IMG/VR virus record: IMGVR_UViG_3300049596_000539
Coordinates: 1-57,384 of that record
Reading direction: 5' to 3' (one strand)
Source of the DNA: a virus
Length of the DNA stretch: 57,384 bases
Shown here: one piece after another, positions 10,650 through 30,662 of the stretch
Position numbering within the stretch: position 1 is the first letter of the stretch
Layout of the letters: every line of letters begins with the position of its first letter
Made by a program: the position numbers and the translations under genes
The notes under the pieces: generated by a model
Databases searched by the model: none
What the model saw: only the letters and a program-made list of their open reading frames with translations
What the model was told of the DNA's origin: nothing

Positions 10650-10678
10650 ATCCTCTCATGCGCTTCAGAAAAAGTCAA
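10650..10678 (-). promoter_or_regulatory. TTGACT-N17-GAGGAT leaderless promoter
   Basis: Reverse strand: -35 TTGACT (10673-10678), 17-bp spacer, -10 GAGGAT (10650-10655), then 6 bases to the ATG at 10643. It would start the operon containing the DNA polymerase. Confidence 0.65.
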
Positions 10679-13080
10679 CTACCCGACCCGTTCAAACTAT
10701 ACGTCGTCGTCCCATCCTTGCGGTCTGGGTTAATGCGCCCGGAGTTTACCAGGAAGCTGATCCGGTCGTCAAGCTCTCTCGGGCTTCGCTGAATCATTGC
10801 CCGGAAGCGGTGGAGGAGCTTCGTGGCCGTTACCGAACCACCTTGAGTGCGGATATAAGCCTCAATCTCGTTGGCAGAACGGCTGAACTCAGACTCAGAG
10901 GTTTCTTCAACCACCCGGAGGAAGTTGTAGAACCAATCCGTCCCGTACCAAATCGCAATGAGTGCATCGGTTTCTGTGAACTGCGTGCGTCCATCGTAGA
11001 GAGCCGTGAGAGCCGCACACTTGACCAGGGTTTCCGTCAGGCGGGTAAGAGGGCCTTGCAGAACGTCGTATCGCTCATGGGACCGGCACATAGCATCGTA
11101 AGCCAGAGCCGCCTTACTGAGACGCGCCCAGCCCTCATCCGTTGCCCCCACAACCGTTTCGCCCGGGAACATGTACGCGGTGTACAACAGATCCGATGCC
11201 AGATCAAACACCGCGGGGTGCGTGCGGGTGCGTGCGTCCACCTCAGTAGGACCCAGGTTAAAGCGCTCTTCATCCCCTTCATCCCGATCCGGTGCCCACG
11301 TCCAGTTCACACGGCTCATGAAGCCTGATTCGAACATCCCTGTTGTGACAAGGCTCAGCAACTTATCCGGAGTAGCCGACATGTTCAGCCCGAAAGAGGT
11401 TGTCGCTCTCTTCCCTCGGATTTCTTTGGGCAACCGGACCTTGTTGGAGGGCTCCACATCGCCGTCGTAGAACCTAGAGAAGTGGTGCTCAAGGGTTTTC
11501 ATCCACTGACTGTCGTGAAGGTCGCTGAAGAAAGACGCCGCTTCGTCGTGGTGGATCATGCTCGCCAGGCCATCCCGCATCAGCAACTCTTCGTGAATCG
11601 CCGTGGGAGATGAGGAAGCACCCACGTTGTAATAGCCCTGCTCGTCGTACGCCACGATGTCTAGAAGTGAGCGGAGAAACTTCATCGAACTGGTTTTTCC
11701 CGTCCCCGTCCCGCCCATCTCAATGAACCACAAATTAATCCCCAGCCCGTTATAGGCCAGGACAACCTTCGTCCCAAATGCCATACTCAAAGCCGTCCAC
11801 GCAGCGGGAACATCGTACGCCGGAACAGAGAAGCCCTTCTTAAGTGATGCCTCAAGGTATTCGTCAATGAACGTGCGAGTCCTCTTGACGACAGTTACCT
11901 CTTCGTCGGTGAGGAAGGCGTGTGTTCCGTGTTCCACCGTATCCGGAATCTGTACTTTTGTGGAACGGTCGGGAAGCGAGGGGTTCTCCCGGATCGGTTC
12001 TGGCTTTGACCTAGCAGATAGCACCCGTTCATGAACGAACTCCAGGCTCCACTCGCGGGAAATATCCCTGGTCCTAGGTGAATTCCAAAGAACAGAGGTT
12101 ACGAAAAGGTCATCATCTGTAGCGCGCTGAAGCTCCCGCAGTAAGGCACTAAACTCCGCCTTGCCCCCGGGCGCTCCGGTAAGGAGGTTGTCGGGGACGG
12201 ATGCAGGGACTTTGTTGATGTCATAGGCGGGGAGGCTTTTTCGTAGCTCAATAGAGTCACCGTATCGCTCAATGCCCGATGACAGCGCTTCATGAAACTT
12301 CCACTCCCACCGATCTTCCGGCGTGGTGTGCCCTCCGGGGTCACGGGAAAGCCAAGCATCCTCAAGTGCCGACAGCAGTTCCGGCACGCCTGTTGCGGCC
12401 TCAGCACCCAGCCGGATAGCTTCGTAGGTGGCCGACACCATTTCCTGATGCGACATATCGTTATTGACGCGCTCTATTGCCCGGCGGACAGCGACGTTCG
12501 GGGGACCAACTTCAAGTGTGTCGTACCACTCTTTCAGCCCACCTGAAAATGACTCGGAGGACTTTACGGTTTTTTCATCCAGCATCCACTCAGGCGCCGG
12601 TGAGAACTCTTCACGACTCTTCGGAACATCGCCGTTCCATAGTACCCAAGAGGACCCGGCGCGGATGTCTACGCCCTGCATCCCCCGGTAGTTAGTCGCG
12701 GGAGCCAGGTTCTTTCCCTCGGGTGCTGTGTAGATGAGGTGCGTTCCGCCAGAGGGGGTCTCATAGCTGAACGTGCTCGGGATCTCGTACCAGGATTTCT
12801 CCAGAGAATCCCAACCCGACTTGCCGTTCTTCTCGTCTACGTCTAGCCCAATAAGCCCGGCGGCTCCCAGGTACGCACCGACTCGTGCGGACTTGTTCTC
12901 AGTGAACCAATCCTCGACAAGACCGGGGTCAAGGGATGCTTCGAGATGGCCGTTCTTGTGGCCCCACGGCTCCTTAACGCCTTCTGACGTAATGCGCGCT
13001 TTAAACACGGGAATGCCCAGTGCTACAAGCCCCCGGGCGATATCAACCGAACGGTGTTCCATAGGTAGTTCGGTCTTCAA
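10675..13080 (-). CDS. Primase-polymerase/helicase fusion
   Basis: An 801-aa replication protein. Residues about 10-165 form a bifunctional primase-polymerase domain: LIGLDVDEKNG carries the acidic pair (D80, D82) and SGGTHLIYTAP the conserved His. A helicase or ATPase domain follows, with Walker A GGTGTGKTS at 456-464 and further ATPase segments (IHHDEAASFF). The C-terminal 70 residues look like a winged helix. Such proteins prime and unwind DNA for the phage polymerase. The start is TTG 13080, with GAGGGAGC 8 bases upstream; an ATG six codons later is the alternative. It ends at 10675, overlapping the -35 box of the downstream promoter. Confidence 0.87.
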   Translation of the reverse strand: MKTELPMEHRSVDIARGLVALGIPVFKARITSEGVKEPWGHKNGHLEASLDPGLVEDWFTENKSARVGAYLGAAGLIGLDVDEKNGKSGWDSLEKSWYEIPSTFSYETPSGGTHLIYTAPEGKNLAPATNYRGMQGVDIRAGSSWVLWNGDVPKSREEFSPAPEWMLDEKTVKSSESFSGGLKEWYDTLEVGPPNVAVRRAIERVNNDMSHQEMVSATYEAIRLGAEAATGVPELLSALEDAWLSRDPGGHTTPEDRWEWKFHEALSSGIERYGDSIELRKSLPAYDINKVPASVPDNLLTGAPGGKAEFSALLRELQRATDDDLFVTSVLWNSPRTRDISREWSLEFVHERVLSARSKPEPIRENPSLPDRSTKVQIPDTVEHGTHAFLTDEEVTVVKRTRTFIDEYLEASLKKGFSVPAYDVPAAWTALSMAFGTKVVLAYNGLGINLWFIEMGGTGTGKTSSMKFLRSLLDIVAYDEQGYYNVGASSSPTAIHEELLMRDGLASMIHHDEAASFFSDLHDSQWMKTLEHHFSRFYDGDVEPSNKVRLPKEIRGKRATTSFGLNMSATPDKLLSLVTTGMFESGFMSRVNWTWAPDRDEGDEERFNLGPTEVDARTRTHPAVFDLASDLLYTAYMFPGETVVGATDEGWARLSKAALAYDAMCRSHERYDVLQGPLTRLTETLVKCAALTALYDGRTQFTETDALIAIWYGTDWFYNFLRVVEETSESEFSRSANEIEAYIRTQGGSVTATKLLHRFRAMIQRSPRELDDRISFLVNSGRINPDRKDGTTTYSLNGSGS

Positions 13081-13106
13081 GCTGTGCTCCCTCGTCCTCG
13101 AATATC

Positions 13107-13115
13107 AGTCTATCG
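13107..13115 (-). promoter_or_regulatory. Extended -10 motif before the primase
   Basis: The reverse strand reads CGATAGACT, followed by GATATTCGAGG and the primase start 27 bases on. One mismatch to the recurrent TGATAGACT motif. Confidence 0.45.
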
Positions 13116-13161
13116 CGTCTCCCCGTACGCCTCAATAAATTTCACATCAGTTTCGTAAACG

Positions 13162-13216
13162 CGCAACGGGGAGGATTCGAACCTCAAACCAAATTAACCA
13201 GTGCCACTGGCGTTGC
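13162..13216 (-). ncRNA. tRNA-like fragment with T-arm
   Basis: Reverse-strand 55-nt element. The ends GCAACG and CGTTGC pair (6 bp), enclosing a CCAG/CTGG hairpin and a T-arm-like hairpin GAGG-TTCGAAT-CCTC. It has the TTCGAAT loop typical of a tRNA T-loop, but there is no anticodon arm, and the total is some 20 nt too short for a tRNA. It could be a decayed tRNA or a tRNA-like structure. Confidence 0.4.
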
Positions 13217-13275
13217 CACCCCTCGATCATTCCCGCTTGCATACGGCTACGGCTTGGAGATGAGGATTCTCCGCG

Positions 13276-16462: not shown

Positions 16463-16803
16463 CAGTCAATCCCCTGCCCTTCGGGCGATTCGCCCATCTC
16501 CGCGATAAAGTCCGCAATCTCTTCCTCCGTGATCGGATCATCCGCGTCATAGTCTACCGCGTCGTGATCGTGGCTCGGGTCGGTGCAATCCAGATCGGTC
16601 GTCGGGATGTAGAAACCGGCGAGTGCGTACTGCCCCAGCATATCCAGGGCTGTTGCAATCGTAGGCTCCTCCGCGTTATCCGGGTAAGCAATCATAGCCC
16701 CGATCCCTGAAACAACCTGATCATGTGGTGCGTGGTGGAGTGCGTGAATGAACAACCAATTATGGCTATAGATCCCGTAGTGGTCCGGGTCAAGACTTTC
16801 CAT
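16462..16803 (-). CDS. Acidic hypothetical protein, 113 aa
   Basis: Starts MESLDPDHYGIYSHNW at ATG 16803, overlapping the WhiB-like gene stop; the longer 16914 start is antisense to coding potential of its neighbour. The C-terminal third is very acidic (DHDAVDYDADDPITEEE). The N-terminal part has several His and Trp residues (HNWLFIHALHHAPH). It is co-translated with the WhiB-like gene. Unknown function. Confidence 0.65.
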   Translation of the reverse strand: MESLDPDHYGIYSHNWLFIHALHHAPHDQVVSGIGAMIAYPDNAEEPTIATALDMLGQYALAGFYIPTTDLDCTDPSHDHDAVDYDADDPITEEEIADFIAEMGESPEGQGID

Positions 16804-17140
16804 CCTGCTCTCCCTCAATCTCAAAGTTCTTCGAAACCCCAGCATACACCCCATGCGCGGGCCTTGCAACCAGCCGGTAGATATCGCAGGCGGTCCAGGA
16901 TTTGCAGGACGCACAAGCTAGTTCCGCATCCTCGCCGGTCAATAGCGTGTCGCTGTCACCGCTGAACTCATCCGCCCGTCCCACACAGTTCGCCCCGTTC
17001 TCTTTCACGGACTTCCGGAGTTTATCGAGTGCATGAGCGGCTTCTGTTTTCAGTTCTAAATAGGCGTACGACAACTCCCTCGCAGGCTTAGGTCGATCTC
17101 CAACGATGCGGAATCCTGGAACGCTCGGATAATCAGGCAT
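16790..17140 (-). CDS. WhiB-like iron-sulfur transcription factor
   Basis: A 116-aa protein with the WhiB cysteine pattern: C52, then C76-x2-C79-x5-C85 (ELACASCKSWTACDIY), which binds a 4Fe-4S cluster. It is followed by a GVYAG turn equivalent to the G[VI]WGG motif near DNA- and sigma-contacting residues. WhiB proteins occur only in Actinobacteria and their phages, where they bind the principal sigma factor. The N-terminal 50 residues are an atypical helical extension. It could redirect host RNA polymerase between promoter classes; that link is inference. Confidence 0.8.
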   Translation of the reverse strand: MPDYPSVPGFRIVGDRPKPARELSYAYLELKTEAAHALDKLRKSVKENGANCVGRADEFSGDSDTLLTGEDAELACASCKSWTACDIYRLVARPAHGVYAGVSKNFEIEGEQDGKS

Positions 17141-19170: not shown

Positions 19171-19189
19171 GTTCTCTCCTCCTGTAAGT

Positions 19190-19203: not shown

Positions 19204-20655
19204 TTACGCGGCGCGCAAGCTGCGGTTCAAAAGAAGGCGACGCTCAACCGCCTCCGAAAAACGACCCTCACTGAGCCCTAAATCGTCGTGCAGGTATACC
19301 CTAAGAATTTGCTTGGTCTGTCCGCTGCGGTCTGTTCTCCCGGCGGCTTGCTCGTTGATTGTTTCATCTGTTGACCGGCTGAGCCAAATCTCATTATTGG
19401 CTACATGCTGAATTCCGTCAACGCCCTCGGCAATGGCGGCAAGGACCCCGACGACAACTCGGTACTTAGTGCCAAGCTGGGAAAGCATTACATCCCGTTC
19501 TCCGCGGGTCTGCCCCGAGAATTCAAAGGCGGAGATGCCCACCTCATTCAGCCGGGCCGTTACAACCGCGGCGAACTTCTGAGAATCTGTGAACACAACT
19601 ACGCATTCATTTTCCATCTCATCCGTCAGCAAATCAATCGCGCGATCAAGGGCCGGGGAAGCGCAATCTTCCGCGAACGTCACGACTGGGTTGTCCTCAA
19701 CGTATTCAATCGAAGGAACCGCGAGAGCGATTTGACGGATGCGCTGGGCCTGAGTCAAAGGGATGTCCGCTACCATCGGGTTATCCTCAAGGTAAGTCAT
19801 CATGTGAGACTCCATCTCCTTGATAGCCTTCTTCTGAGCGGGCAAGAGTGGAATAGTCTCATGGCGCACCGTGGGCTCATCTACCGGCATAAATCCGTTG
19901 GGGTGGAATTCGCAGCACTTCTCACGCTTAAAGTGAGTGATAATTAGGGGTGACTCTTTCAGCCACTTACCCGGGATTGTCTCACCGTAATACTGCTTGA
20001 CCTTCTTCGGCTGGCCCTGAGCGTCCTTCTGAGCGGTGTATACCTCTTTGTAATCCATCCACTGAGAAAGCCACCCCCAGTAGTTGTCGTATGCTACCTG
20101 ACCGGAGAGGTTTAGTTCGGGCCACAGGAACCTGGAGATCGACCAAGCCAACTCGAACTTGTTACGGAGCGACGTTCCAGAGAGCATCATCCGGCCATCA
20201 AAGCGCTTAGACAAAGGCTCGCCGTCCTTTATGGAAAAACCTCCGAGCTTACGCTGTCCCTTAGATCCCGGCGCGGAAACTTTGTGGCTCTCATCCACCA
20301 GAATCAGATCCCCACTCCAGTCCGACACGTCCGCACGGGTTAGGAACTGAGGGGTAGCCAAGTAGACTCCCGGGTATCCGAGGGTCATGTCCGCAAGGGC
20401 TTGCTTCTTCGCCTTGCCCGTGTTACCGATAACCCGGCCCTCAAGTCCCACCTTCTCAAGCGTCGGCAACCAGGCGGTGCCGTGGGTCTGATCGGGTGCG
20501 ATAACGAGAGTGACGTTAGAACCAGATTCAATATGCGAGAACACGCCGGTCGCAGTCTTGCCAGACCCTGTTTCCTGGTTGAGTAGACCGCGGTAGTTGT
20601 GCGTCTTCAACAGGTCAAGGTCATGGCGCTGGAAGGGGCGGGGTGTGAAGCTCAT
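19204..20655 (-). CDS. SNF2/DEXH-type helicase (predicted leaderless)
   Basis: A 483-aa superfamily 2 helicase. Motif I is GSGKT near residue 31 (NQETGSGKTATG), motif II is VDESHK and motif VI is QAAGRTDRSGQTK. The compact form without extra domains matches phage DNA translocases and recombination helicases. Its ATG is 6 bases from a TAGGAT -10 box with TTGACT 17 bases upstream, so the transcript probably begins at the start codon. It heads the operon that runs on to the LPXTG and recombination genes, unless the motif at 19190 restarts transcription. Confidence 0.9.
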   Translation of the reverse strand: MSFTPRPFQRHDLDLLKTHNYRGLLNQETGSGKTATGVFSHIESGSNVTLVIAPDQTHGTAWLPTLEKVGLEGRVIGNTGKAKKQALADMTLGYPGVYLATPQFLTRADVSDWSGDLILVDESHKVSAPGSKGQRKLGGFSIKDGEPLSKRFDGRMMLSGTSLRNKFELAWSISRFLWPELNLSGQVAYDNYWGWLSQWMDYKEVYTAQKDAQGQPKKVKQYYGETIPGKWLKESPLIITHFKREKCCEFHPNGFMPVDEPTVRHETIPLLPAQKKAIKEMESHMMTYLEDNPMVADIPLTQAQRIRQIALAVPSIEYVEDNPVVTFAEDCASPALDRAIDLLTDEMENECVVVFTDSQKFAAVVTARLNEVGISAFEFSGQTRGERDVMLSQLGTKYRVVVGVLAAIAEGVDGIQHVANNEIWLSRSTDETINEQAAGRTDRSGQTKQILRVYLHDDLGLSEGRFSEAVERRLLLNRSLRAA

Positions 20656-20661
20656 GCTTAA

Positions 20662-20690
20662 ATCCTAGCGGTGACCTGCGGAAAAGTCAA
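20662..20690 (-). promoter_or_regulatory. TTGACT-N17-TAGGAT leaderless promoter
   Basis: Reverse strand: TTGACT at 20685-20690, 17-bp spacer, TAGGAT at 20662-20667, then 6 bases to the helicase ATG (20655). Confidence 0.7.
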
Positions 20691-20692
20691 CC

Positions 20693-22793: not shown

Positions 22794-23164
22794 TATTCAG
22801 ACTCCGATCCGGTCGGCATCGGTTCGATCGCCCAGAACTGGCGCGCCTCTAGCCCATCTTGAGAAGGGTGCGGATCGTGGATCAGCCCCTCGGGACCCCA
22901 CACAACGACATGCTCGACGTTCCGAGGGGACATCCCGATCGCCAAGCATTCGCGGTCGATGTTGCCAGCGGCCATCGGGTGCATCGTGAGTCCGCGCGAC
23001 CGCAGCCACATCGTGAATGCTGTGAACCAGTCGCGGTCGTAGAGAACGAAGTGCGGGACAGCCTCAGTAGGCAGGTCAAGCAGTGACGCAACGGCGGTGC
23101 GCATGCAGTCGCCGGGTATGCCGCGCGGGTCGTTGACGAAGATCGTCTGTGTGTGCCGAATCAC
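22793..23164 (-). CDS. Papain-fold-like protein, 123 aa
   Basis: The order GIPGDCMRTAVASLLDLP (C20 at the start of a helix), then EHVVVWG (H85), then LIHDPHPS (D97) matches the Cys-His-Asp arrangement of compact C39/NlpC-like cysteine-peptidase folds. Similar small proteins are common in actinobacteriophage accessory regions and have no established substrate. Function as a peptidase or amidase is therefore only a structural inference. Confidence 0.55.
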   Translation of the reverse strand: MIRHTQTIFVNDPRGIPGDCMRTAVASLLDLPTEAVPHFVLYDRDWFTAFTMWLRSRGLTMHPMAAGNIDRECLAIGMSPRNVEHVVVWGPEGLIHDPHPSQDGLEARQFWAIEPMPTGSESE

Positions 23165-23598
23165 TGCTCAACCCCGTTCGTCTCCTGTTTGGCTTCGGGG
23201 TTGTCCTGCGGGACAGGAACAGCAGGAGCGGAGAGGATGAGACGCATCCATTCACGAGCGAACCCGTCTGTTACTTCCTGCCTCTCGGCATCAAGAGCAT
23301 CCGCGATCCGTGCGTCCCGGTCAGCGACCTCGGCTCGGAGTGTGGTGATCTCGTCCAACAGGGCAAGCACCACGTCAGGCGAGGCGGCGGCGATGAACTC
23401 GGCATCCGGGTCCGTGTAGACGTGAGCGACCGGATTGCAGTCCTCCGCCTCACCGTCCGCGAGCAACTGCCGGTACGACTCGGCATCCCCCACCGTCTTG
23501 AATCCCTGGTAATCCAGGTCGTGCCAGATCGCCCAAGGCCCTTCGACCGCGACCGCCTCGGCTAGTGCCCGCAACCCCACAACATCGGAATCGGTCAT
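23161..23598 (-). CDS. Ead/Ea22-like accessory protein, 145 aa
   Basis: The segment AEFIAAASPDVVLALLDEITTLRAEVADRDARI is the widely shared phage Ead/Ea22-type motif, a helix pair followed by a coiled coil. Such early accessory proteins vary greatly between phages and their role is unknown. A 30-base stretch encoding DEITTLRA is repeated exactly in the gene at 23998. It lies in the GC-rich module. Confidence 0.7.
   Translation of the reverse strand: MTDSDVVGLRALAEAVAVEGPWAIWHDLDYQGFKTVGDAESYRQLLADGEAEDCNPVAHVYTDPDAEFIAAASPDVVLALLDEITTLRAEVADRDARIADALDAERQEVTDGFAREWMRLILSAPAVPVPQDNPEAKQETNGVEQ
23330..23359. repeat. 30-bp direct repeat, copy 1
   Basis: Identical over 30 bases to 24176-24205. 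Both copies encode the DEITTLRA segment of two different leftward genes, so it reflects exchange or duplication inside coding DNA. Confidence 0.9.
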
Positions 23599-23747
23599 GC
23601 GTCCGTGCTCCTAATCTCGTGATCCCGCTTACGTTGTGCCGCAGCACCGGCCGCGAACACTGCTCGCAGTCCGGCATCGTGGTCCTGGATCGTCCAGACG
23701 TTGCGGTCCCGGAAGGCGGCGAGGTAGATGTCGTGAAGCTCAGGCAT
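23595..23747 (-). CDS. Small hypothetical protein, 50 aa
   Basis: Starts MPELHDIYLAAFRDRNVWT at ATG 23747 and ends RDHEIRSTDA in an ATGA overlap. Its last residues (HEIRSTDA) resemble the end of the 35-aa gene (HEIRRHDA), and the nucleotides CTCCTAATCTCGTG are shared. Unknown function. Confidence 0.65.
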   Translation of the reverse strand: MPELHDIYLAAFRDRNVWTIQDHDAGLRAVFAAGAAAQRKRDHEIRSTDA

Positions 23748-23901
23748 CTTGTGCACCCATATCGACATTCACGGTGACCGAAGTCGGCCGTCCGTCATCG
23801 CGCCAGACCGACGTCGGGAGGTCGACGCGGACCACGCCTTCGTTCGTGAAGGTGGCGCGCTCCTTATCGAGCGCGCTCAGGGTAAGTGCATACCTACGCA
23901 T
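23740..23901 (-). CDS. Small hypothetical protein, 53 aa
   Basis: Starts MRRYALTLSALDKERATFT at ATG 23901 inside the end of the preceding gene and overlaps the next by 8 bases. Beta-rich (SVTVNVDMGA). It is in the GC-rich module. No family. Confidence 0.65.
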   Translation of the reverse strand: MRRYALTLSALDKERATFTNEGVVRVDLPTSVWRDDGRPTSVTVNVDMGAQDA

Positions 23902-24001
23902 CGTGTCTCCTAATCTCGTGGTTTGTGGTCATGTCCCAGCGCCGGTCACCTGGCCGGACCACCTCGTATTCGGTCACTTCGATGGGCTCCATGCCGGTCA
24001 T
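23894..24001 (-). CDS. Micro-protein, 35 aa
   Basis: Starts MTGMEPIEVTEYEVVRPGD at ATG 24001 in an ATGA overlap and ends NHEIRRHDA. Short and charged. The 24088 start is antisense-like and deep inside the neighbour. Unknown function. Confidence 0.55.
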   Translation of the reverse strand: MTGMEPIEVTEYEVVRPGDRRWDMTTNHEIRRHDA

Positions 24002-24309
24002 TCTCCCACCGCTTTGGGTTCGTCGATCTGCCATCTGAGGGACCGGAGTTCGTGTCCTCCACGCCAGACCATTTCGCATGCCCGGCACATTCCGCGTGCG
24101 TGGCGCAGGACGTCGTCTTCGGGCCCTTCCCGGTATTCGACGCGGACGGGGTGGCGGTACACGATCCCGTCGATGTCGGCTCGGAGTGTGGTGATCTCGT
24201 CCAACGTCTCCTCCAAAGCGAATGCTAGGCGGTCGGCATCTACTATAGTGACATAGGTCGCTGAAAGGTTGTTGTACTCGTCCAGAACCTTACGGGCATC
24301 AGAACTCAC
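23998..24309 (-). CDS. Hypothetical protein with coiled coil, 103 aa
   Basis: The N-terminal 50 residues contain ALEETLDEITTLRADID, related to the Ead/Ea22-like coiled coil of the gene at 23161. The C-terminal half has CRACEMVW, a possible CxxC metal site, and several His and Arg residues. The exact 30-base repeat shared with 23330-23359 suggests recombination between the two genes. Unknown function. Confidence 0.65.
   Translation of the reverse strand: MSSDARKVLDEYNNLSATYVTIVDADRLAFALEETLDEITTLRADIDGIVYRHPVRVEYREGPEDDVLRHARGMCRACEMVWRGGHELRSLRWQIDEPKAVGE
24176..24205. repeat. 30-bp direct repeat, copy 2
   Basis: Exact copy of 23330-23359, about 850 bp away, in the same orientation. Confidence 0.9.
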
Positions 24310-24556
24310 GGTAACCCTCCATCGGTTCGCCCTGTGCGTAATCAGGATCGTAGTTGAAAGAATCCATCACCATGTCCTCTACTTCGGACTCTACAGGCGC
24401 ATAGTCCAGGTTCGTCGGGTAACCGCGCTGAACGTGAAGAGTCTCCGAATGGGACTGGATAAGCGCGTCGATGTCGAGAATGTCGGGCGTCTTGCCGTAA
24501 CTAACCAGTCGGTCGTGAATCCGGTTTGAAAGCTCGGGGTGTAGCAGATCAAGCAT
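24299..24556 (-). CDS. Hypothetical protein, 85 aa
   Basis: An acidic protein (VESEVEDMVMDSFNYDPDYA) preceded by GAGAGGAAA and a strong promoter at 24585-24613. It marks the start of the transcription unit that runs through the GC-rich module. No family recognised. Confidence 0.68.
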   Translation of the reverse strand: MLDLLHPELSNRIHDRLVSYGKTPDILDIDALIQSHSETLHVQRGYPTNLDYAPVESEVEDMVMDSFNYDPDYAQGEPMEGYREF

Positions 24557-24584
24557 GATGTTTCCTCTCGTTGCTGATAGGACA

Positions 24585-24613
24585 AGACTACGGGGTTAGG
24601 GCTCGGGTGTCAA
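24585..24613 (-). promoter_or_regulatory. TTGACA-N17-TAGTCT promoter
   Basis: Reverse strand: TTGACA at 24608-24613 (overlapping the stop codon of the preceding gene), 17-bp spacer, TAGTCT at 24585-24590. A leader of about 28 bases with GAGAGGAAA follows. Confidence 0.7.
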
Positions 24614-24786
24614 TACTCGGAAAGACAATTCTCAATCCAACTCAAAGCCTCAGGTTTGTTAGCCTCAAGCCAGAAAAACAATTCCTCGGGCATCGTAATC
24701 CACGGGTGCCAGTGAGAAGAACACACGCCCTCGTCGTCCCAGTGCCCAGCCGATTTAGTACACCAATGAATTACATTCTCAGTCAT
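24610..24786 (-). CDS. Small hypothetical protein, 58 aa
   Basis: Starts MTENVIHWCTKSAGHWDDEG at ATG 24786 in an ATGA overlap. Rich in Trp, His and Cys (C9, C22, C54), so possibly metal-binding. The stop codon overlaps the next promoter. No family. Confidence 0.65.
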   Translation of the reverse strand: MTENVIHWCTKSAGHWDDEGVCSSHWHPWITMPEELFFWLEANKPEALSWIENCLSEY

Positions 24787-25064
24787 CAGATCGGCCTCAC
24801 AGACCAGCAGATTTCCATGTCGCGGTCACAATGGGCGCATTCGTAGTCGCCGTCAGCAATGTATACATTAGCCAACTCCCCGACGTTCGTGCAAACTCGC
24901 AAGTCCTGCCGCGTACAATCAACCGAGAGCAAGTAAGCAACATCATGTGAACAAGTCGTGTCCCCGCCGATGTGCGTTTCCGATTCGCATTTCAGCGGCT
25001 CGGCGTTCATGATGAGGGTGAGCGTGTCCAAATCAACATCGGTACGGGTTAGCGTTTGGTTCAT
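24786..25064 (-). CDS. Cysteine-rich hypothetical protein, 92 aa
   Basis: Seven cysteines, including a CAHC pair near the C-terminus, and several His residues (HIGGDTTCSH, YECAHCDRDMEIC), suggest one or two zinc sites. Coupled at both ends to neighbours. Small zinc proteins of this kind often act as host-takeover or nucleic-acid-binding proteins, but nothing specific is supported. Confidence 0.65.
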   Translation of the reverse strand: MNQTLTRTDVDLDTLTLIMNAEPLKCESETHIGGDTTCSHDVAYLLSVDCTRQDLRVCTNVGELANVYIADGDYECAHCDRDMEICWSVRPI

Positions 25065-25234
25065 TGGATCAATCCGCCTTCAGTCTGAATTTGCTTTACA
25101 TACTCCAGAAAACCCTCTAAGGTGTTTCGAGTTACCCGGCCCATGTAAGGATAGCCCTGGTCATTTGCAAGTTTCTGGCATTCTTCGATAAAGATTTCCG
25201 CCAGTCGTTGCAGTTCTTCGTGTGAGTAGGTCAT
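25061..25234 (-). CDS. Small hypothetical protein, 57 aa
   Basis: Starts MTYSHEELQRLAEIFIEECQ at ATG 25234 in an ATGA overlap and ends in another. Largely helical. Coupling on both sides supports translation. Unknown function. Confidence 0.68.
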   Translation of the reverse strand: MTYSHEELQRLAEIFIEECQKLANDQGYPYMGRVTRNTLEGFLEYVKQIQTEGGLIQ

Positions 25235-25572
25235 CACGCCTCCAATGCGGCAAGGCGGGTAAGGACTCGACGGGCGTGGTCTACCTGAGAATCGTCAATC
25301 TGAGTCTGATACGCATAACCTGTTTCCGCGATGAAAGATTCGTCATCCAGTGCCTTAACCCACATCTCCGCAATCCCACTAAATTCTCGGAACTCAAGGA
25401 TCAGCGGGTTAGCGCCTTCCGTAGCGACGGGGACGTGATCGAACTCGGGGCGTTCATCGCGAGCCAGATCGACAATCGGACGACTGCTAAACGGATAGGC
25501 GTAGCGCGTGCCATAGAAGTCGGTCCACGGCATCGGGTCGGTGTTCGGAACACGGCTAGAGTAAAGTTTCAT
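25234..25572 (-). CDS. Hypothetical protein, 112 aa
   Basis: GAGGAGG precedes ATG 25572, with a promoter at 25617-25645. The sequence has a beta-rich N-terminus (PWTDFYGTRYAYPF) and a helical C-terminus (DDSQVDHARRVLTRLAALEA). First gene of a coupled run. No family recognised. Confidence 0.7.
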   Translation of the reverse strand: MKLYSSRVPNTDPMPWTDFYGTRYAYPFSSRPIVDLARDERPEFDHVPVATEGANPLILEFREFSGIAEMWVKALDDESFIAETGYAYQTQIDDSQVDHARRVLTRLAALEA

Positions 25573-25616
25573 GATTCCTCCTCACAAGTAGATTCGCCAG
25601 GATAGGCGTTAGAACT

Positions 25617-25645
25617 AGTATGACCTAGCGGGGAGCGGAAGTCAA
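25617..25645 (-). promoter_or_regulatory. TTGACT-N17-CATACT promoter
   Basis: Reverse strand: TTGACT at 25640-25645, 17-bp spacer, CATACT at 25617-25622, followed by a roughly 40-base leader with GAGGAGG. Confidence 0.7.
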
Positions 25646-25908
25646 GCCACGAACAAAAAGAAAACCAAGACCCCCCACAAACCGAACGCAACGCCCACAC
25701 CGATAGCAAAAACAGGAGGCGGGCCTAACGCTGTATACTCGGTATCTAGCGCCCAGTTCCAAAAGCGCGCCAGCTTAGAACGCCCTGGCGCATGAAAGCG
25801 GGATTGAGTACCGGCCCATACCCGCAAAGCGTCTAGCTCGTCCTCAGTGGCACCCTCTGCGAGCTTTACAGCGGCATTTAGGCGTTCATCCCGTGCTGTG
25901 TCGTCCAT
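25642..25908 (-). CDS. Tail-anchored membrane protein, 88 aa
   Basis: The N-terminal 55 residues are soluble and helical (TARDERLNAAVKLAEGATEDELDALRV by residue spacing). The C-terminal 25 residues are a membrane segment (VFAIGVGVAFGLWGVLVFFLFV). This places a cytoplasmic domain at the membrane. The stop lies within the next promoter. Role unknown. Confidence 0.72.
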   Translation of the reverse strand: MDDTARDERLNAAVKLAEGATEDELDALRVWAGTQSRFHAPGRSKLARFWNWALDTEYTALGPPPVFAIGVGVAFGLWGVLVFFLFVA

Positions 25909-26183
25909 CAGTTCTTCTCCTTAAAAGGGACATAAACGCCTCGGGAAGCTCCGGCTTCGGGAAAGGCACGGGAAGGGGTAAAGCGGAAAGAAACCACGCC
26001 GTGACCGGTTACATGGATATCTACGGGGGTTCCTGAGTCGATGACCTTCTTATTCAGCACGTAAGCAACCACCTTGATTTGGTGCTCTTTCGGCATCATC
26101 TCCAGCGGGAACATGCTCAGCGCATCGCCGTGCATCTCACGGGCGGACGGCATGTGCATCGGGATCTTCTTGACTTCTTGCAT
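25908..26183 (-). CDS. Hypothetical protein, 91 aa
   Basis: Met- and His-rich N-terminus (MHMPSAREMHGDALSMFP) and a beta-rich C-terminus (HVTGHGVVSFRFTPSRAFP). The start overlaps nothing but lies one base after the preceding stop. No recognised family. Confidence 0.68.
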   Translation of the reverse strand: MQEVKKIPMHMPSAREMHGDALSMFPLEMMPKEHQIKVVAYVLNKKVIDSGTPVDIHVTGHGVVSFRFTPSRAFPEAGASRGVYVPFKEKN

Positions 26184-26184
26184 G

Positions 26185-26778
26185 TTAGTTCTCCTTGCTC
26201 GGGGCGGTGAAAGTACCTGCCGTAATTGCTCGTTCGATCTCGTCGGAAATGAAACGGATCAGGCCGTCCCTCTCCCGCAAAAGGATGTCGAATGCTCGCT
26301 CCCCTTCGGCAGTCGTGGCGTCGATAACCCACACGTTCCGGCCATAGCGTACCGTGGATAGGTCAAGCTCCACAATAGGATCGAACGCATTACCCGCCCC
26401 GTCCTTCTTAAGGTAAAGGATTCCGGCGTCAAGATCCCAAACGAACGCGGCCTTTTCGTCTGCCTCGGCCTTTCGGGCGTTCTCGATAGTAACGCGCTCA
26501 GGCTCAATTTCCGCGAGATCACGCCACTTCGTCCAGCGCTCCCAATCATTTGTCTTGAGAACGTTCTTTCGGATTACCCCGCCGGGAACCCCCGCCGCAG
26601 AGGCCATCTTCAACCGGAGGGCAAAATCTGCCTCAATGCTCGCAGTACGCTCCGAAATCTCACGCAGAATCCGTCCTTCGTACTCCGCCCGAACCTGTTC
26701 AGCAATCACTTTCTTAGCGATCCGCATACGGGATTTGGCCTCGACCAGTTCGATAACGTACTGCGTGAAGTCAGGCAC
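26185..26778 (-). CDS. Hypothetical protein, 197 aa
   Basis: The likely start is GTG 26778 (MPDFTQYVIELVEAKSRM), an 8-base overlap with the preceding gene; the 26811 start would overlap by 41 bases. The N-terminal half is a long charged helix (RIAKKVIAEQVRAEYEGRIL and onward). The C-terminal half is mixed, with VWDLDAGILYLKKDG. It is the largest unknown in the 24-27 kb unit. No function can be assigned. Confidence 0.7.
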   Translation of the reverse strand: MPDFTQYVIELVEAKSRMRIAKKVIAEQVRAEYEGRILREISERTASIEADFALRLKMASAAGVPGGVIRKNVLKTNDWERWTKWRDLAEIEPERVTIENARKAEADEKAAFVWDLDAGILYLKKDGAGNAFDPIVELDLSTVRYGRNVWVIDATTAEGERAFDILLRERDGLIRFISDEIERAITAGTFTAPSKEN

Positions 26779-27025
26779 GAAAACCTCGCAGGGTTGCGGT
26801 CGAAACCTCAATGAACTCCGCCAGGTCTGAGAGGGCTCCCATAAGCTCGTCTATAAGTTTCGGGTCAGACTCATCGGAGAGGACATCCATAACTCGCTGC
26901 ATCTCGCTCACAGCCACCTCCAGGGCGTCAGCATCTCCCGGGTCGGATCCGGTAACGGACGTGTCCAGGATAGTGATTCCCGGAGAGGATGTGACCTCTT
27001 CTTTCGCGAACAATACATAAGCCAT
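26771..27025 (-). CDS. Hypothetical protein, 84 aa
   Basis: An acidic protein, beta-like at the N-terminus and helical afterwards (LIDELMGALSDLAEFIEV). First gene of its unit, with a TGATAGGCT promoter motif at 27064-27072. Unknown function. Confidence 0.7.
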   Translation of the reverse strand: MAYVLFAKEEVTSSPGITILDTSVTGSDPGDADALEVAVSEMQRVMDVLSDESDPKLIDELMGALSDLAEFIEVSTATLRGFRA

Positions 27026-27414
27026 TGCGTGTTTCCCTTCTCGTAGTTTTCGGTCTTACCCTCAGCCTATCACTACTTTTCACGAGATCCTTGGTTGTTA
27101 CCTAATCGTTATAAAGGGAAACTAACCCAAAAAAGTGTGGCCCAGTAGGCTAAAAAACTAACTATTTTGGCGTCGGTTTAGTGGGTAAATCGGGGTGTCC
27201 GGAGGTCCTCGACGTACTTTTAGGGTCTTTGGGACGGTTTTGAATGAGTGTGAAACCCTGATTTTATGCGGAATACGACGGAGAGTTGTGGCCCTAAACA
27301 TGATACATCTATAACTCACTCATCTATATTACTAGGGTTAGGGATTTACGGTTGTTACTGCTCTGCACTGGGAGACTTCATCGGTAGGCTCTAGTTATGT
27401 GGTAGGTTTATTTT
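27026..27414. other. AT-richer intergenic region, possible origin or control region
   Basis: About 390 bases without a supported gene, the longest such stretch in the window, between divergent genes. It is locally AT-rich against a GC-rich genome, with A- and T-runs (CCAAAAAAGTG, GGCTAAAAAACTAACTATTTTGG), a repeated AAACTAAC, and a TATAACTCACTCATCTATATTACTAGG stretch in the second half by segments. A leftward TGATAGGCT motif is at 27064. A replication origin is possible, but no iteron set was identified by eye. Confidence 0.4.
27064..27072 (-). promoter_or_regulatory. Extended -10 motif before the 27025 gene
   Basis: Reverse strand TGATAGGCT, identical to the motif at 4005 (reverse) and 41528 (forward). 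Confidence 0.5.
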
Positions 27415-27915
27415 ATGGATACCTTCAATCATGGCACATATGCCACCTACACAAACCGGAATTGTCGGTGCGATCTTTGCAAGAAAGCGGCCTCTGAATA
27501 TGCCAAGGCTAAGAAACTAAAAGGCTTACCAGAGGGGGATAAGAGGCACGGCACTCGGAACGGATATTTCAACTGGGGTTGTCGGTGTGATGACTGCAAA
27601 CTGATCGGCAAGGAATATGCCTCATCCCGTCCAGATGGAGCACGATCAGCTAGCTTGAAACGTAACTACGGACTGACATCGGAAGACTGGGATGAACTGT
27701 TTGAGTCCCAGGAGGGCCTCTGTGCGTCTTGTGGGGAGCCCCCTGCAAAAGATGCCAAGCGCCGGTTTCATCTGGATCACAACCACATTACCGGACAAAA
27801 CAGGGGCATCCTGTGCCATGGCTGTAACGTCGCTCTTGGTTTGTTGAAAGAGGACCGCACTAAGATTCGGGCGTTGATTGATTACCTGAACAAGTGGGAT
27901 GACGATTACTTCTAG
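27415..27915 (+). CDS. HNH endonuclease (endonuclease VII-like)
   Basis: A 166-aa protein. The C-terminal core contains CASC, LDHNHITGQNRGILCHGCNVALG and LLKEDR, which is the zinc-bound HNH fold of the recombination endonuclease VII family. The N-terminal half has two CxCDxC-type pairs (CRCDLC, CRCDDC), probably extra zinc fingers for DNA contact. It is a lone rightward gene in a leftward block, typical of a mobile freestanding endonuclease. There is no ribosome-binding site before the ATG; a TAGGTT hexamer lies 6 bases upstream. Confidence 0.88.
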   Translation: MDTFNHGTYATYTNRNCRCDLCKKAASEYAKAKKLKGLPEGDKRHGTRNGYFNWGCRCDDCKLIGKEYASSRPDGARSASLKRNYGLTSEDWDELFESQEGLCASCGEPPAKDAKRRFHLDHNHITGQNRGILCHGCNVALGLLKEDRTKIRALIDYLNKWDDDYF

Positions 27916-28000
27916 AGCGCTCTATACTTCGGAGCATTCTCTCCTCCCTTTGGCGTAGCCGAACCCAGTTCAGGGGGTAAGATATTCCTTCGGACTCGTT

Positions 28001-28018
28001 GATAGCGGTGCTATCAGG
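28001..28018. terminator. Palindromic hairpin between convergent genes
   Basis: TGATAGC and GCTATCA pair as a 7-bp stem around GGT, followed by CAGGCCGGG. It lies between the convergent HNH gene and the gene ending at 28033. There is no T tract, so it may be a terminator or a paired copy of the TGATAG motif. Confidence 0.35.
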
Positions 28019-28032
28019 CCGGGTGTTCATCG

Positions 28033-28227
28033 TCAGTAGTAAAGCGTTGTGCGACCGTTGACGGTGGGCTCTAGTACCGGGTCACCTGAATCGTCTTGCA
28101 CGGCGTAACCTTCGTAGGCCGTGGCGTGGTGCATGCTGTAGGAAACGTTCCGGTGGAACCAGGCCAGGACTTCGGACTCGGTAGTAGCGGTGGCGATGGG
28201 CTGTCCGTCGCGAGTGATGGTGAACAT
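28033..28227 (-). CDS. Hypothetical protein, 64 aa
   Basis: Starts MFTITRDGQPIATATTESE at ATG 28227 with GGGAGG upstream and ends after NGRTTLYY. It looks like a small beta-rich domain followed by YEGYAVQDDSGDPVLEP. A diverged fragment of the same motif (YEGYSVKDDAGRDVLV) lies at 29112-29180. Function unknown. Confidence 0.68.
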   Translation of the reverse strand: MFTITRDGQPIATATTESEVLAWFHRNVSYSMHHATAYEGYAVQDDSGDPVLEPTVNGRTTLYY

Positions 28228-28280
28228 TGGGTGCCTCCCGGCGTCTCGGTGAAAGCTGCTTTGCAGCGGGTCTTAGGTCA

Positions 28281-28309
28281 AGTATGCCGGTTGCGAGGGA
28301 GGAAGTCAA
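28281..28309 (-). promoter_or_regulatory. TTGACT-N17-CATACT promoter
   Basis: Reverse strand: TTGACT at 28304-28309, 17-bp spacer, CATACT at 28281-28286, followed by a roughly 53-base leader with GGGAGG before the 64-aa gene. Confidence 0.7.
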
Positions 28310-28360
28310 GCGTTTTATCAAAAGACTTTGCAAGCGCTAGAAGGCGTTTTAAGACGACGA

Positions 28361-28399
28361 AACCCCCGCCTAGGCTACCGACACCTAGAACAGGGGTTA
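28361..28399 (-). terminator. Leftward terminator after the 69-aa gene
   Basis: On the reverse strand, AACCCC ... TAGG pairs with CCTA ... GGGGTT as an interrupted stem, followed by TTTCGTCGTCTT. It would separate the 69-aa gene from the next promoter. Confidence 0.5.
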
Positions 28400-28427
28400 A
28401 GTGGCTGAGAATTGATCCTGTGCGTTC

Positions 28428-28637
28428 TCAGAGGGCTTTAGCGAGCATAAGGGACAGGCCCGTAGGCTCAGTACCCTTGCGATAGGTGCCGGTAGTCCAG
28501 CCGTGATCCTTGCGGGACTTCTCTTCTCGGGTACAGTCGCGGATAGAGCCGATAGCGAGCTTGATGAGGTAAGGCTTATCGTCCTGCCCTACATAGCTCG
28601 GGTGAAAGCCCCACAGGATGTACTCTGTCTTTGTCAT
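28428..28637 (-). CDS. Hypothetical protein, 69 aa (predicted leaderless)
   Basis: Starts MTKTEYILWGFHPSYVGQDD. Its ATG is 6 bases from a GAGACT -10 box with TTGACT 17 bases upstream, leaving no space for a ribosome-binding site. The product is basic and mixed alpha/beta. Flanked by its own promoter and terminator, so it is a single-gene unit. No family. Confidence 0.7.
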   Translation of the reverse strand: MTKTEYILWGFHPSYVGQDDKPYLIKLAIGSIRDCTREEKSRKDHGWTTGTYRKGTEPTGLSLMLAKAL

Positions 28638-28643
28638 GGGATA

Positions 28644-28672
28644 AGTCTCTCAGTTCGTCTAGCAAAAGTCAA
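28644..28672 (-). promoter_or_regulatory. TTGACT-N17-GAGACT leaderless promoter
   Basis: Reverse strand: TTGACT at 28667-28672, 17-bp spacer, GAGACT at 28644-28649, then 6 bases to the ATG (28637). Confidence 0.7.
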
Positions 28673-28771
28673 GCAGAAAAACCGAAAGGCCCTTAAGAGA
28701 ATCCCCATCCCCTAAGAGCCCCGCTTCCCTGCCCCGGATTCATTCGGTAAGGGGCGTTTTTGGTTGTTCAG

Positions 28772-28921
28772 TTATTCGGATTCAAGCGGCTCGATTCGGA
28801 GCAATACCCTGTCATACGCATCACAGTTTCGGATGAACTCGGTAAGCTCGTTGAGTCCCTGTTTGAAAGTGGTTCGCACATACCCGTCTCGCGAGTAGGT
28901 GATAACGAATTTGTTGTTCAT
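28772..28921 (-). CDS. Small hypothetical protein, 49 aa (predicted leaderless)
   Basis: Starts MNNKFVITYSRDGYVRTTFK at ATG 28921 and ends LLRIEPLESE. The promoter geometry (TTGACT, 17 bp, GAGGAT, 6 bp, ATG) supports the start. Probably a small beta-alpha fold. No recognised family. Confidence 0.7.
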   Translation of the reverse strand: MNNKFVITYSRDGYVRTTFKQGLNELTEFIRNCDAYDRVLLRIEPLESE

Positions 28922-28927
28922 GTCCCA

Positions 28928-28956
28928 ATCCTCTCACTCTCTACGCGAAAAGTCAA
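28928..28956 (-). promoter_or_regulatory. TTGACT-N17-GAGGAT leaderless promoter
   Basis: Reverse strand: TTGACT at 28951-28956, 17-bp spacer, GAGGAT at 28928-28933, then 6 bases to the ATG (28921). Same boxes as at 10650. Confidence 0.7.
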
Positions 28957-28989
28957 GTGAGCAAAGCGAACGTGTGAGGCGTTAGCCGA

Positions 28990-29112
28990 TCAAGCCCTAC
29001 GCGAAAGATGTTCTAAGTGTTCTTGAAATCGTTTGGCCGCGTCAATCTGTGCCTGTTTTACAGCTAACAGGTAAATTGTCGCACCTGAATTCGTGCGGGT
29101 TAGCGTGAGCAT
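28990..29112 (-). CDS. Small hypothetical protein, 40 aa
   Basis: Starts MLTLTRTNSGATIYLLAVKQ at ATG 29112, overlapping the upstream TAA (TAATG), and ends HLSRRA. The C-terminal half is a charged helix (QIDAAKRFQEHLEHLSRR). Coupled to the remnant upstream. Unknown function. Confidence 0.55.
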   Translation of the reverse strand: MLTLTRTNSGATIYLLAVKQAQIDAAKRFQEHLEHLSRRA

Positions 29113-29180
29113 TAGACCAACACGTCTCGTCCGGCGTCGTCCTTGACGGAGTAGCCCTCATACGGCGGTTGAGGTACGCA
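29112..29180 (-). pseudogene. Start-less fragment related to the 64-aa gene
   Basis: An open frame of about 22 codons ending PPYEGYSVKDDAGRDVLV and a TAA. It has no start codon after the TGA that opens the frame. The segment matches YEGYAVQDDSGDPVLEP in the gene at 28033. It appears to be the 3' remnant of a second copy. Confidence 0.5.
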
Positions 29181-29184
29181 TCAG

Positions 29185-29436
29185 TCAAACCCGATACAGA
29201 TTGCCAGTATGTGTCATGGATTCAGGGTACGACCAGGAATGCTGCATCGCGGAACACGGCTCACCTTGCGGGTCTAGATCACCCTCGCATCGCATCCATG
29301 TATATTCGATGACTTTGCCCGCAAGCCCCGGATTCAGAAAGCCGTTGAAATGCGCGGTTTCTGACTCTGAGTAGTGGTGGGACACTAAGTGTCCGCAAGT
29401 GCATCGAGCGTAGGACCCATCACTTGCATCAGTCAT
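29185..29436 (-). CDS. Cysteine/histidine-rich protein, 83 aa
   Basis: An N-terminal CTCGHLVSHHYSE resembles a small zinc site; further Cys residues (C50, C61) lie in the middle. ATGA-coupled to the 81-aa gene. Possibly a small zinc-binding protein; role unknown. Confidence 0.65.
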   Translation of the reverse strand: MTDASDGSYARCTCGHLVSHHYSESETAHFNGFLNPGLAGKVIEYTWMRCEGDLDPQGEPCSAMQHSWSYPESMTHTGNLYRV

Positions 29437-29678
29437 ACGCCCGCCCTCGCAAACTCAACTTCCCGGACGTATTCGATATGCGTGCATCGCGGCCCGCAAT
29501 AGATGCCGTAGGCGTCACTGTGCGCCCCGCCAACGCCCGCGAGCGCGTGTGTAGCGCAATCCGGCGCGTCCATGCGAACGAAAGTGGCAGGTGACCCACA
29601 GACGTCACAGGGATAGGTGCTGAAGGCCCCCTCGCGAGCGGTCCAGCCCAACTCGATTAGATTGCTAAGAGTGCTCAT
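29433..29678 (-). CDS. Putative zinc-binding protein, 81 aa
   Basis: Contains YPCDVCGSPAT (CxxC) and DCATHA, then YCGPRCTH, giving a plausible zinc ribbon with four to six ligands. AGGTCGGGAGGCC precedes the start by segments. Function unknown; such proteins are common in early phage regions. Confidence 0.65.
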   Translation of the reverse strand: MSTLSNLIELGWTAREGAFSTYPCDVCGSPATFVRMDAPDCATHALAGVGGAHSDAYGIYCGPRCTHIEYVREVEFARAGV

Positions 29679-29714
29679 GATGGCCTCCCGACCTACCGGT
29701 GCGGGTTAGGGTTC

Positions 29715-29930
29715 TCATGCGAACGGCTCCCCCCTCTTCCAGATAACGCGCATCCCCTGGGGGTAGACGATAAGCCCGGCCTCTGCCGCATTCTCTAGGG
29801 CAATGGGTCGATAAGTCTTTTGCCAGTCTCGGCTAAGTTCCGCCCACTCCACTACAGTAGGTCCCTGTACCACGATGCGGTCGCCATCAGAGTTAATAAC
29901 GGTAGCGAATGTTTCGGTGTATTCGTTCAT
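29715..29930 (-). CDS. Hypothetical protein, 71 aa (predicted leaderless)
   Basis: Starts MNEYTETFATVINSDGDRIV. The ATG is 6 bases from a GAGAAT -10 box, with TTGACT 17 bases upstream. Mixed alpha/beta, with no recognised family. Confidence 0.7.
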   Translation of the reverse strand: MNEYTETFATVINSDGDRIVVQGPTVVEWAELSRDWQKTYRPIALENAAEAGLIVYPQGMRVIWKRGEPFA

Positions 29931-29936
29931 GTCTCT

Positions 29937-29965
29937 ATTCTCCTACGCGATGGTGTGTAAGTCAA
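29937..29965 (-). promoter_or_regulatory. TTGACT-N17-GAGAAT leaderless promoter
   Basis: Reverse strand: TTGACT at 29960-29965, 17-bp spacer, GAGAAT at 29937-29942, then GTCTCT-complement and the ATG (29930), 6 bases in all. Confidence 0.7.
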
Positions 29966-30014
29966 GCGGCGAGCGCTAATTGATAATGATTCTCAAGTAA
30001 AGACAAACGCAGAT

Positions 30015-30236
30015 TCAGTCATTAACCTCAGCATGCACCATCCACGCACCCAGCCCGGCAAGCGCCAGCACGAACGCGGTGCCCACAACGTGGACGTTGG
30101 TGGATGAGATAGCGGCGAGGTCCAGCACGACGTAGAGCGCAATGAGCCCTGCGAGCGTGAGAGCGGCGAACGCGATGGCCCCGGCGTACTGTACGGCGAG
30201 TCGCTGTACGCGGGTGAGGATGGCGGCGGTGTTCAT
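30015..30236 (-). CDS. Membrane protein, 73 aa
   Basis: Starts MNTAAILTRVQRLAVQYAG at ATG 30236, overlapping the upstream TAA (TAATG). Two membrane segments (about residues 16-40 and 48-68), with a short acidic tail (HAEVND). Coupled to another tiny membrane protein. Possibly modifies the host membrane early in infection; inferred. Confidence 0.7.
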   Translation of the reverse strand: MNTAAILTRVQRLAVQYAGAIAFAALTLAGLIALYVVLDLAAISSTNVHVVGTAFVLALAGLGAWMVHAEVND

Positions 30237-30337
30237 TAGATGCTCCAGTGAATAGCGGTGTGGATGAATGCGATGAGCAATGCCGATGCGAGAAGGGCAC
30301 ATGCGGTGTCGATCACGGGGCGACGGCGGGTCATCAT
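30236..30337 (-). CDS. Membrane micro-protein, 33 aa
   Basis: Starts MMTRRRPVIDTACALLASAL in an ATGA overlap with the 97-aa gene and ends in a TAATG overlap. Three arginines precede one membrane segment (about residues 9-28), giving a positive-inside single-pass topology. Too short for most gene callers, but coupled on both sides. Confidence 0.7.
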   Translation of the reverse strand: MMTRRRPVIDTACALLASALLIAFIHTAIHWSI

Positions 30338-30627
30338 GCACCCATCCGCATAGCGCGTGCAATGACGGTACGGATAACGGACACCGAGTCAGCACCGCGG
30401 AACATAGCACCTGCCTGCCCCCGCTTGCGCGTGTCGCCTACGGCTGTGGTGCCTAGGTAGTTGGGGAAGATGCTACGCGCGGTGTCCGTCAGGGGATTGA
30501 TGGTAACGGTGGCCCACGGCGTGCCGTTCTCGGTAGCGGTGAACGTGGTGCGAGTCTCGTGCGGCAATGCGGCCAACATCGTGGCGAATGCGGCGACTGA
30601 CTTAGCTTCAACCGTTTGCGTGTTCAT
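30334..30627 (-). CDS. Hypothetical protein, 97 aa (predicted leaderless)
   Basis: First leftward gene from the divergent control region. Its ATG is 6 bases from a CATACT -10 box with TTGACC 17 bases upstream. The sequence has a helical start (SVAAFATMLAALPHE) and a beta-rich middle (TTFTATENGTPWATVTI), with a basic C-terminus. Likely an early protein. No family. Confidence 0.72.
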   Translation of the reverse strand: MNTQTVEAKSVAAFATMLAALPHETRTTFTATENGTPWATVTINPLTDTARSIFPNYLGTTAVGDTRKRGQAGAMFRGADSVSVIRTVIARAMRMGA

Positions 30628-30633
30628 GTCTCT

Positions 30634-30662
30634 AGTATGGCGCAGCTAGGGGGTAGGGTCAA
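30634..30662 (-). promoter_or_regulatory. TTGACC-N17-CATACT leaderless promoter
   Basis: Reverse strand: TTGACC at 30657-30662, 17-bp spacer, CATACT at 30634-30639, then 6 bases to the ATG (30627). Likely the leading leftward (early) promoter. Confidence 0.72.

Follow-up and report, generated by a model that had tools for sequence, protein, structure and literature searches.

Repeated promoter-like sites at a fixed distance from ATG suggest leaderless leftward genes in the genome of a probable actinobacteriophage

Results

Genome organization and geometry of the sites

The virus record IMGVR_UViG_3300049596_000539 was analysed over its full 57,384 nucleotides (hereafter the window). It encodes a primase, a DNA polymerase, a helicase, a terminase, and a tape measure protein, and six of its leftward genes are preceded by promoter-like sites with a single geometry: TTGACY, a 17 bp spacer, NANNNT, 6 bp, and ATG, all on the minus strand (Table 1; genes are named by the position of their start codon). 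An exact 127 bp direct repeat at the record ends (1–127 and 57258–57384) suggests a complete circular assembly. Because such a terminal repeat is typical of complete circular assemblies, a leftward arm (about 3–30.7 kb) and a rightward arm (from 30.9 kb past the record end to 2.9 kb) probably constitute the whole genome. Among sequenced phages, the WaterT group of Microbacterium phages is the nearest (about 45% identity in the primase and 43–52% in the helicase), followed by more distant phages of Clavibacter, Arthrobacter, and Curtobacterium; the host is therefore probably a Micrococcales actinobacterium. No close relatives were found in IMG/VR and GTDB by single-protein scans with the primase, DNA polymerase, and terminase.

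All boxes listed in an initial annotation of the six genes are present exactly as described. When the A of each ATG is numbered +1, TTGACY occupies positions -35 to -30 and NANNNT positions -12 to -7 in every unit. The -35 boxes (five TTGACT and one TTGACC) are close to TTGACA. The -10 boxes all retain A-11 and T-7 at the invariant 17 bp spacing, and their first base (-12) is T only at gp20655, G at four sites, and C at one. A TG at -15/-14, with TGA directly before the -10 box, occurs at gp10643, gp28637, and gp28921 only. The base at -1 is a pyrimidine in all six cases (five C and one T); elsewhere, 36 of 82 starts have a pyrimidine there (p=0.01).

Three further leftward sites described initially, at 24585, 25617, and 28281, are likewise real and belong to the same promoter class, with Shine-Dalgarno (SD) leaders; these positions are the ends of the -10 boxes, and the corresponding -35 boxes begin at 24613, 25645, and 28309. 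No homologues of gp10643, gp28637, or gp30627 were found in the phage collection. For gp29930, the homologue in phage Cassita backs the start codon, since residue 1 aligns with residue 1 of Cassita gp128.

Statistical analysis

A whole-record search for the strict pattern returned six matches, all leftward, and none for the reversed control. By comparison, 300 first-order Markov simulations of the sequence never contained more than one site. TTGAC lies at -35 in six of 87 gene starts, called with a simple in-house codon-usage script rather than a standard gene finder, and in at most two at any other offset. The spacing is also evident when the ATG is disregarded: NANNNT lies 17 bp after TTGAC in 22 cases, whereas the other spacers between 10 and 25 bp give 2–9 cases each. 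From these counts, simulations, and spacer enrichment, the sites are therefore taken to be promoters and not chance matches.

The same geometry without the Y (TTGAC-N19-A-NNN-T-N6-ATG) was counted in 39 Actinomycetales chromosomes, sampled within the order to which a Bifidobacterium genome belongs. It occurred 112 times in 136 Mb (0.8 per Mb), against 22 for the control, whereas the density in the window is 105 per Mb, or about 127-fold higher. The Actinomycetales centre for this comparison was supplied by a genome-wide scan for TTGACT-17-TAGGAT-6-ATGA, which served only that purpose; its matches fell in scattered phyla, consistent with chance. A pattern scan of IMG/VR gave eight matches, to which no weight is given, the roughly estimated chance level being similar for so short a pattern.

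Occurrence in related phages

The TTGAC-17-NANNNT class recurs in WaterT, BarnCat, Lifes, LeeroyJenkins, and Cassita, mostly with SD leaders. In the WaterT group, most copies precede small genes close to the genome end, and most of the inferred start-to-ATG distances are 17–35 nt, with an SD sequence. However, WaterT, BarnCat, Lifes, and LeeroyJenkins each carry one copy in the leaderless geometry, TTGACAGGCGGTTTCTTTGCGTCTAGACT-6-ATG (TTGACA-17-TAGACT), before the helicase operon. Its class, spacing, and geometry are those of the window sites and its genome position is comparable to that of the window helicase promoter, but it has TTGACA in place of TTGACY and the first gene encodes a 49-aa protein and not the helicase; a common origin of the two promoters is putative. 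A further pattern match lies in the terminal repeats of BarnCat, Lifes, and LeeroyJenkins.

In Cassita, this promoter also precedes the helicase operon, but the ATG is changed to ATC and an SD-preceded ATG lies 21 nt downstream. The Cassita homologue of gp29930 has TTGACA-17-CATACT with a 24-nt SD leader. In the much larger phage A3Wally, the homologue of gp28921 lies instead inside a tight row of genes. Loss of the boxes in relatives that keep the genes would have spoken against the initial proposal; the boxes are conserved where a comparison is possible. The class is thus shared, and the predicted leaderless spacing has apparently been both gained and lost, because Cassita keeps the boxes with ATC or an SD leader and four relatives have a leaderless copy.

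The class did not exceed control level in P23-45, Giles, phiC31, and BFK20. A different pattern, TANNNT exactly at -12 without TTGAC, precedes a few genes in the relatives CN1A, CMP1, Nonagon, Hubbs, ISF9, Amigo/Molivia, and Jojan60. ISF9 and Amigo/Molivia show a smaller excess; in the other five it is clear (4–6 versus 0.3–0.9 expected). In the Stenotrophomonas virus Jojan60 (ON045087), TAGAAT, TAAACT, or TAGGAT stands at -12 before six called genes, versus 0.85 expected (for instance at 9304, 10779, 12335, 15409, and 27440). The host of this phage is Gram-negative, which makes the excess an unexpected hint of leaderless genes beyond the actinobacteria.

Overlap of -10 boxes with Shine-Dalgarno-like sequences

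It had been proposed that the six genes have no room for a ribosome-binding site. That is true only of transcripts beginning at the A; SD-like GAGAGGA or GGAG lies just upstream of gp10643, gp28921, and gp29930. Predicted anti-SD pairing, calculated with the general actinobacterial 16S tail, is strong at gp28921 (-10.8 kcal/mol), gp10643 (-9.5), and gp29930 (-7.3), weak at gp28637 and gp20655, and at background level at gp30627 (-2.9). The resemblance arises from the G at -12, which makes GAGAGGAT or GGAGAAT. In a non-redundant set drawn from the phage and its relatives, G at -12 is found in three of six leaderless promoters (five from the window and one from WaterT) and in none of 35 leadered ones (p=0.002); inclusion of the near-duplicate at 10678 gives four of seven. 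An SD-like sequence within -18 to -7 is present in four of the six leaderless promoters and two of the 35 leadered ones (p=0.002).

Pairing strength varies with the upstream context. The gp28637 unit follows a 15-pair hairpin, gp20655 follows a weak hairpin, and gp30627 has no gene upstream. No terminator-like hairpin was seen upstream of the strongly pairing gp28921, gp10643, and gp29930, where the terminator scan covered 19000–31000 only and the result for gp10643 rests on a fold.

Other features of the window

A separate promoter-like family, TGATAAACTRGA, which lacks a -35 box, serves the rightward genes. In this family, TGATAAACT occurs eight times on the plus strand, just upstream of rightward genes, and not at all on the minus strand; seven of the eight copies extend to TGATAAACTRG, and none has a matching -35. 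The family is also present in the WaterT group and is probably late. Three rightward genes (30882, 34775, and 44070) have TAARCT-6-ATG, which is the same 6 bp leaderless geometry without TTGAC. An endonuclease VII/HNH-like gene (27415–27915, plus strand) is reversed inside the leftward arm and has its own TAGGTT-6-ATG geometry.

Upstream of the promoter at 30662, the minus strand of 30663–30731 holds an extra TTGACA with a poor -10 box (TAGGCC). Together with the palindrome that lies between it and the promoter, this may represent a tandem promoter and operator.

A hidden Markov model search of the phage proteins found no sigma region 2 or 4 protein. One leftward gene product resembles WaterT gp84, which is annotated as a WhiB family transcription factor, although its match to WhiB lies below the Pfam cut-off (19.2 versus 23.6 bits). 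WhiB proteins are known to bind region 4 of sigmaA, which makes this product a candidate switch, though no more.

Table 1. Promoter-like sites, associated genes, and neighbouring features of the window
Feature	Position	Strand	Remarks
Promoter + ATG, TTGACT-17-GAGGAT-6-ATG	10641..10678	-	Overlaps primase stop codon
80-aa gene, predicted leaderless start	10401..10643	-	Weak match to phrog_19945 (E 9e-6)
Promoter + ATG, TTGACT-17-TAGGAT-6-ATG	20653..20690	-	
DNA helicase, 483 aa, predicted leaderless start	19204..20655	-	
Promoter + ATG, TTGACT-17-GAGACT-6-ATG	28635..28672	-	Directly after terminator-like hairpin
69-aa gene, predicted leaderless start	28428..28637	-	Without homologue in phage collection
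Promoter + ATG, TTGACT-17-GAGGAT-6-ATG	28919..28956	-	SD-like GAGAGGA
49-aa gene, predicted leaderless start	28772..28921	-	50% identity to A3Wally gp345
Promoter + ATG, TTGACT-17-GAGAAT-6-ATG	29928..29965	-	
71-aa gene, predicted leaderless start	29715..29930	-	Homologue of Cassita gp128
Promoter + ATG, TTGACC-17-CATACT-6-ATG	30625..30662	-	First gene of leftward arm
97-aa gene, predicted leaderless start	30334..30627	-	Without homologue in phage collection
Same class with leader, TTGACT-17-CATACT	28281..28309	-	SD leader; ATG at 28227
Same class with leader, TTGACT-17-CATACT	25617..25645	-	SD leader; ATG at 25572
Same class with leader, TTGACA-17-TAGTCT	24585..24613	-	SD leader; ATG at 24556
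Terminator-like hairpin	28686..28722	-	15 pairs, then T-rich tail; directly before promoter at 28672
TGTTAC-N6-GTAACA inverted repeat	30677..30694		Possible operator; upstream of promoter at 30662
WhiB-like protein, candidate sigmaA modulator	16790..17140	-	CxxC and GVYAG motifs; 40% identity to WaterT gp84
TGATAAACT copies	916, 2555, 30867, 31711, 37320, 38963, 47242, 51730	+	
TAAACT-6-ATG (in TGATAAACT)	30870..30884	+	Before HNH/endonuclease VII-like gene 30882
TAAGCT-6-ATG (in TGATAAGCT)	34763..34777	+	Before open reading frame 34775–35713
TAAACT-6-ATG	44058..44072	+	Before 555-aa gene 44070

Discussion

The six sites are likely to be early promoters of the host sigmaA type that yield leaderless mRNAs. 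From the boxes, their spacing and statistics, the relatives, and the host-order comparison, we infer the following sequence of events. The housekeeping sigmaA RNA polymerase of the host would read the six promoters early in infection. Sigma region 4 would bind the near-consensus TTGACY and, across the optimal 17 bp spacer, region 2 would capture A-11 and T-7, the -10 box being weak in its other bases. RNA synthesis would begin at the A of the ATG, and the host ribosome would initiate directly on the resulting leaderless mRNA, as is common in actinobacteria. The class is common to related Microbacterium phages, mostly with a short SD leader, and this phage would have shifted most of its copies to the leaderless spacing.

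Several observations argue for this interpretation, and the initial proposal of promoters whose geometry predicts leaderless mRNA is upheld by the invariant A-11, T-7, and spacer, the boxes in relatives, and the density. Because the two hexamers stand at textbook positions, transcription is expected to start at the A, and the pyrimidine found at -1 in every unit fits such a start: in mapped Mycobacterium tuberculosis starts, positions -1 and +2 are most often C or T (PMC3898074). Leaderless mRNAs account for 33% in Corynebacterium glutamicum (PMC3890552) and for about a quarter of M. tuberculosis genes with a primary start (PMC3898074), and their share is predicted at 19% over the Actinobacteria (PMC3160421). 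Other points weigh against it. TAnnnT is found at 97% of mapped C. glutamicum starts (PMC3890552), yet the base at -12 is G in four of the six sites and C in one, and the unaided activity of these -10 boxes may be low. SD-like sequence stands at a usable spacing before gp10643, gp28921, and gp29930, which could also be translated from longer mRNAs. Additionally, the host is pointed to by phage relatives only, as a member of the Microbacteriaceae or other Micrococcales.

The weak -10 boxes had been read as a hint of an activator or of altered sigma use. Neither is required, since a strong -35, a 17 bp spacer, and, in half of the sites, TG at -15/-14 can compensate. The negative search for sigma regions 2 and 4 in the phage likewise favours the host factor, although a WhiB-like protein is present. 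Weakness of the individual -10 boxes is also all that favours chance matches picked by eye, a reading that was rejected and has next to no likelihood, given six sites against a simulated mean of 0.037 and a Poisson P of about 1.5e-11 relative to the density in the 39 chromosomes. It is improbable, too, that these are ordinary SD-led genes transcribed from further upstream, with TTGACY as a repeated protein-binding site at a fixed distance from the ATG instead of a -35 box. The SD-like sequences before gp10643, gp28921, and gp29930 would suit that arrangement, but pairing is weak or lacking at gp20655, gp28637, and gp30627, and this reading was rejected on the spacer and NANNNT counts: NANNNT follows at 17 bp in all six sites and equally in the leadered copies, whose ATGs sit elsewhere, and the same spacer is enriched genome-wide and in most relatives.

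Two further alternatives are each possible but doubtful. A phage or host regulator, such as the WhiB-like protein acting via sigmaA region 4, might tune the -35-dependent promoters relative to the -35-less rightward TGATAAACTRGA family. The placement of the two families on opposite strands and the presence of a WhiB-like protein both here and in WaterT are consistent with this, and there is a precedent in gp39 of Thermus phage P23-45, which displaces sigma region 4, a remodelling that favours extended -10 middle and late promoters (PMC7403470). However, the WhiB match falls short of the Pfam cut-off, and both WhiB binding and its timing are putative. In the other alternative, the mRNA is leaderless when made from the promoter, and the purine-rich -10 box (GAGGAT or GAGAAT) is a ribosome-binding site on read-through mRNA, which would give every ATG two routes to translation. 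The contrasts between leaderless and leadered promoters in G at -12 and in SD-like sequence point in this direction, and such a dual role would explain why pairing is strong where no upstream terminator was seen and weak after hairpins or without an upstream gene, because the SD would serve read-through mRNA. Nevertheless, the comparison is post hoc with small numbers, the hairpin before gp20655 is weak, read-through is a prediction, and the leaderless TAGRAT boxes of relatives may be nothing more than the ordinary actinobacterial -10. We therefore propose only tentatively that the -10 boxes of several leaderless early genes have been selected to double as SD sequences, the same start codon being read without a leader on mRNA from its own promoter and with an SD on read-through mRNA, which would give one gene two translation modes at different infection times.

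The initial view that such an arrangement is striking for a phage can be upheld only in part. In Cluster O mycobacteriophages (PMC4351075) and in Adephagia (PMC11373665), leaderless SigA promoters have been predicted, and TANNNT stands at -12 before some genes in several relatives. The Cluster O (Corndog group) promoters PL1, PR2, and PL2 are similar in being predicted leaderless SigA promoters, with several leftward promoters in one arm, but there are three of them, compared with six of one fixed 17/6 geometry here, and the host group differs (PMC4351075). The putative leaderless promoter P90 of Adephagia, predicted to transcribe from the start codon, is a single one before a toxin-antitoxin gene (PMC11373665). 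Leaderless genes of M. tuberculosis and C. glutamicum share a TANNNT -10 box shortly before the ATG or GTG where transcription starts; however, their -35 motif is weak (C. glutamicum; PMC3890552) or was not found (M. tuberculosis; PMC3898074), whereas this phage has a near-consensus -35 and a -10 that often begins with G. The P23-45 middle and late promoters, which resemble the rightward TGATAAACT sites, offer a parallel in having separate -35-dependent and -35-independent classes, but gp39 favours its promoters, no such protein was identified in this phage, and the host is unrelated (PMC7403470). Overall, the kind is already known, and this phage is a well-supported and unusually dense example; its unusual traits are how densely the sites occur, how close the -35 is to consensus, and the resemblance of the -10 to an SD.

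If the starts are confirmed, these sites would provide a natural promoter set in which the same boxes occur with leaderless or leadered spacing, even between homologues such as gp29930 and Cassita gp128, and would allow a direct test of the costs and gains of leaderless starts in infection. The SD-like -10 boxes offer a specific testable idea, namely that one element serves both transcription and translation. In annotating such phages, the position of the promoter could be used to call start codons.

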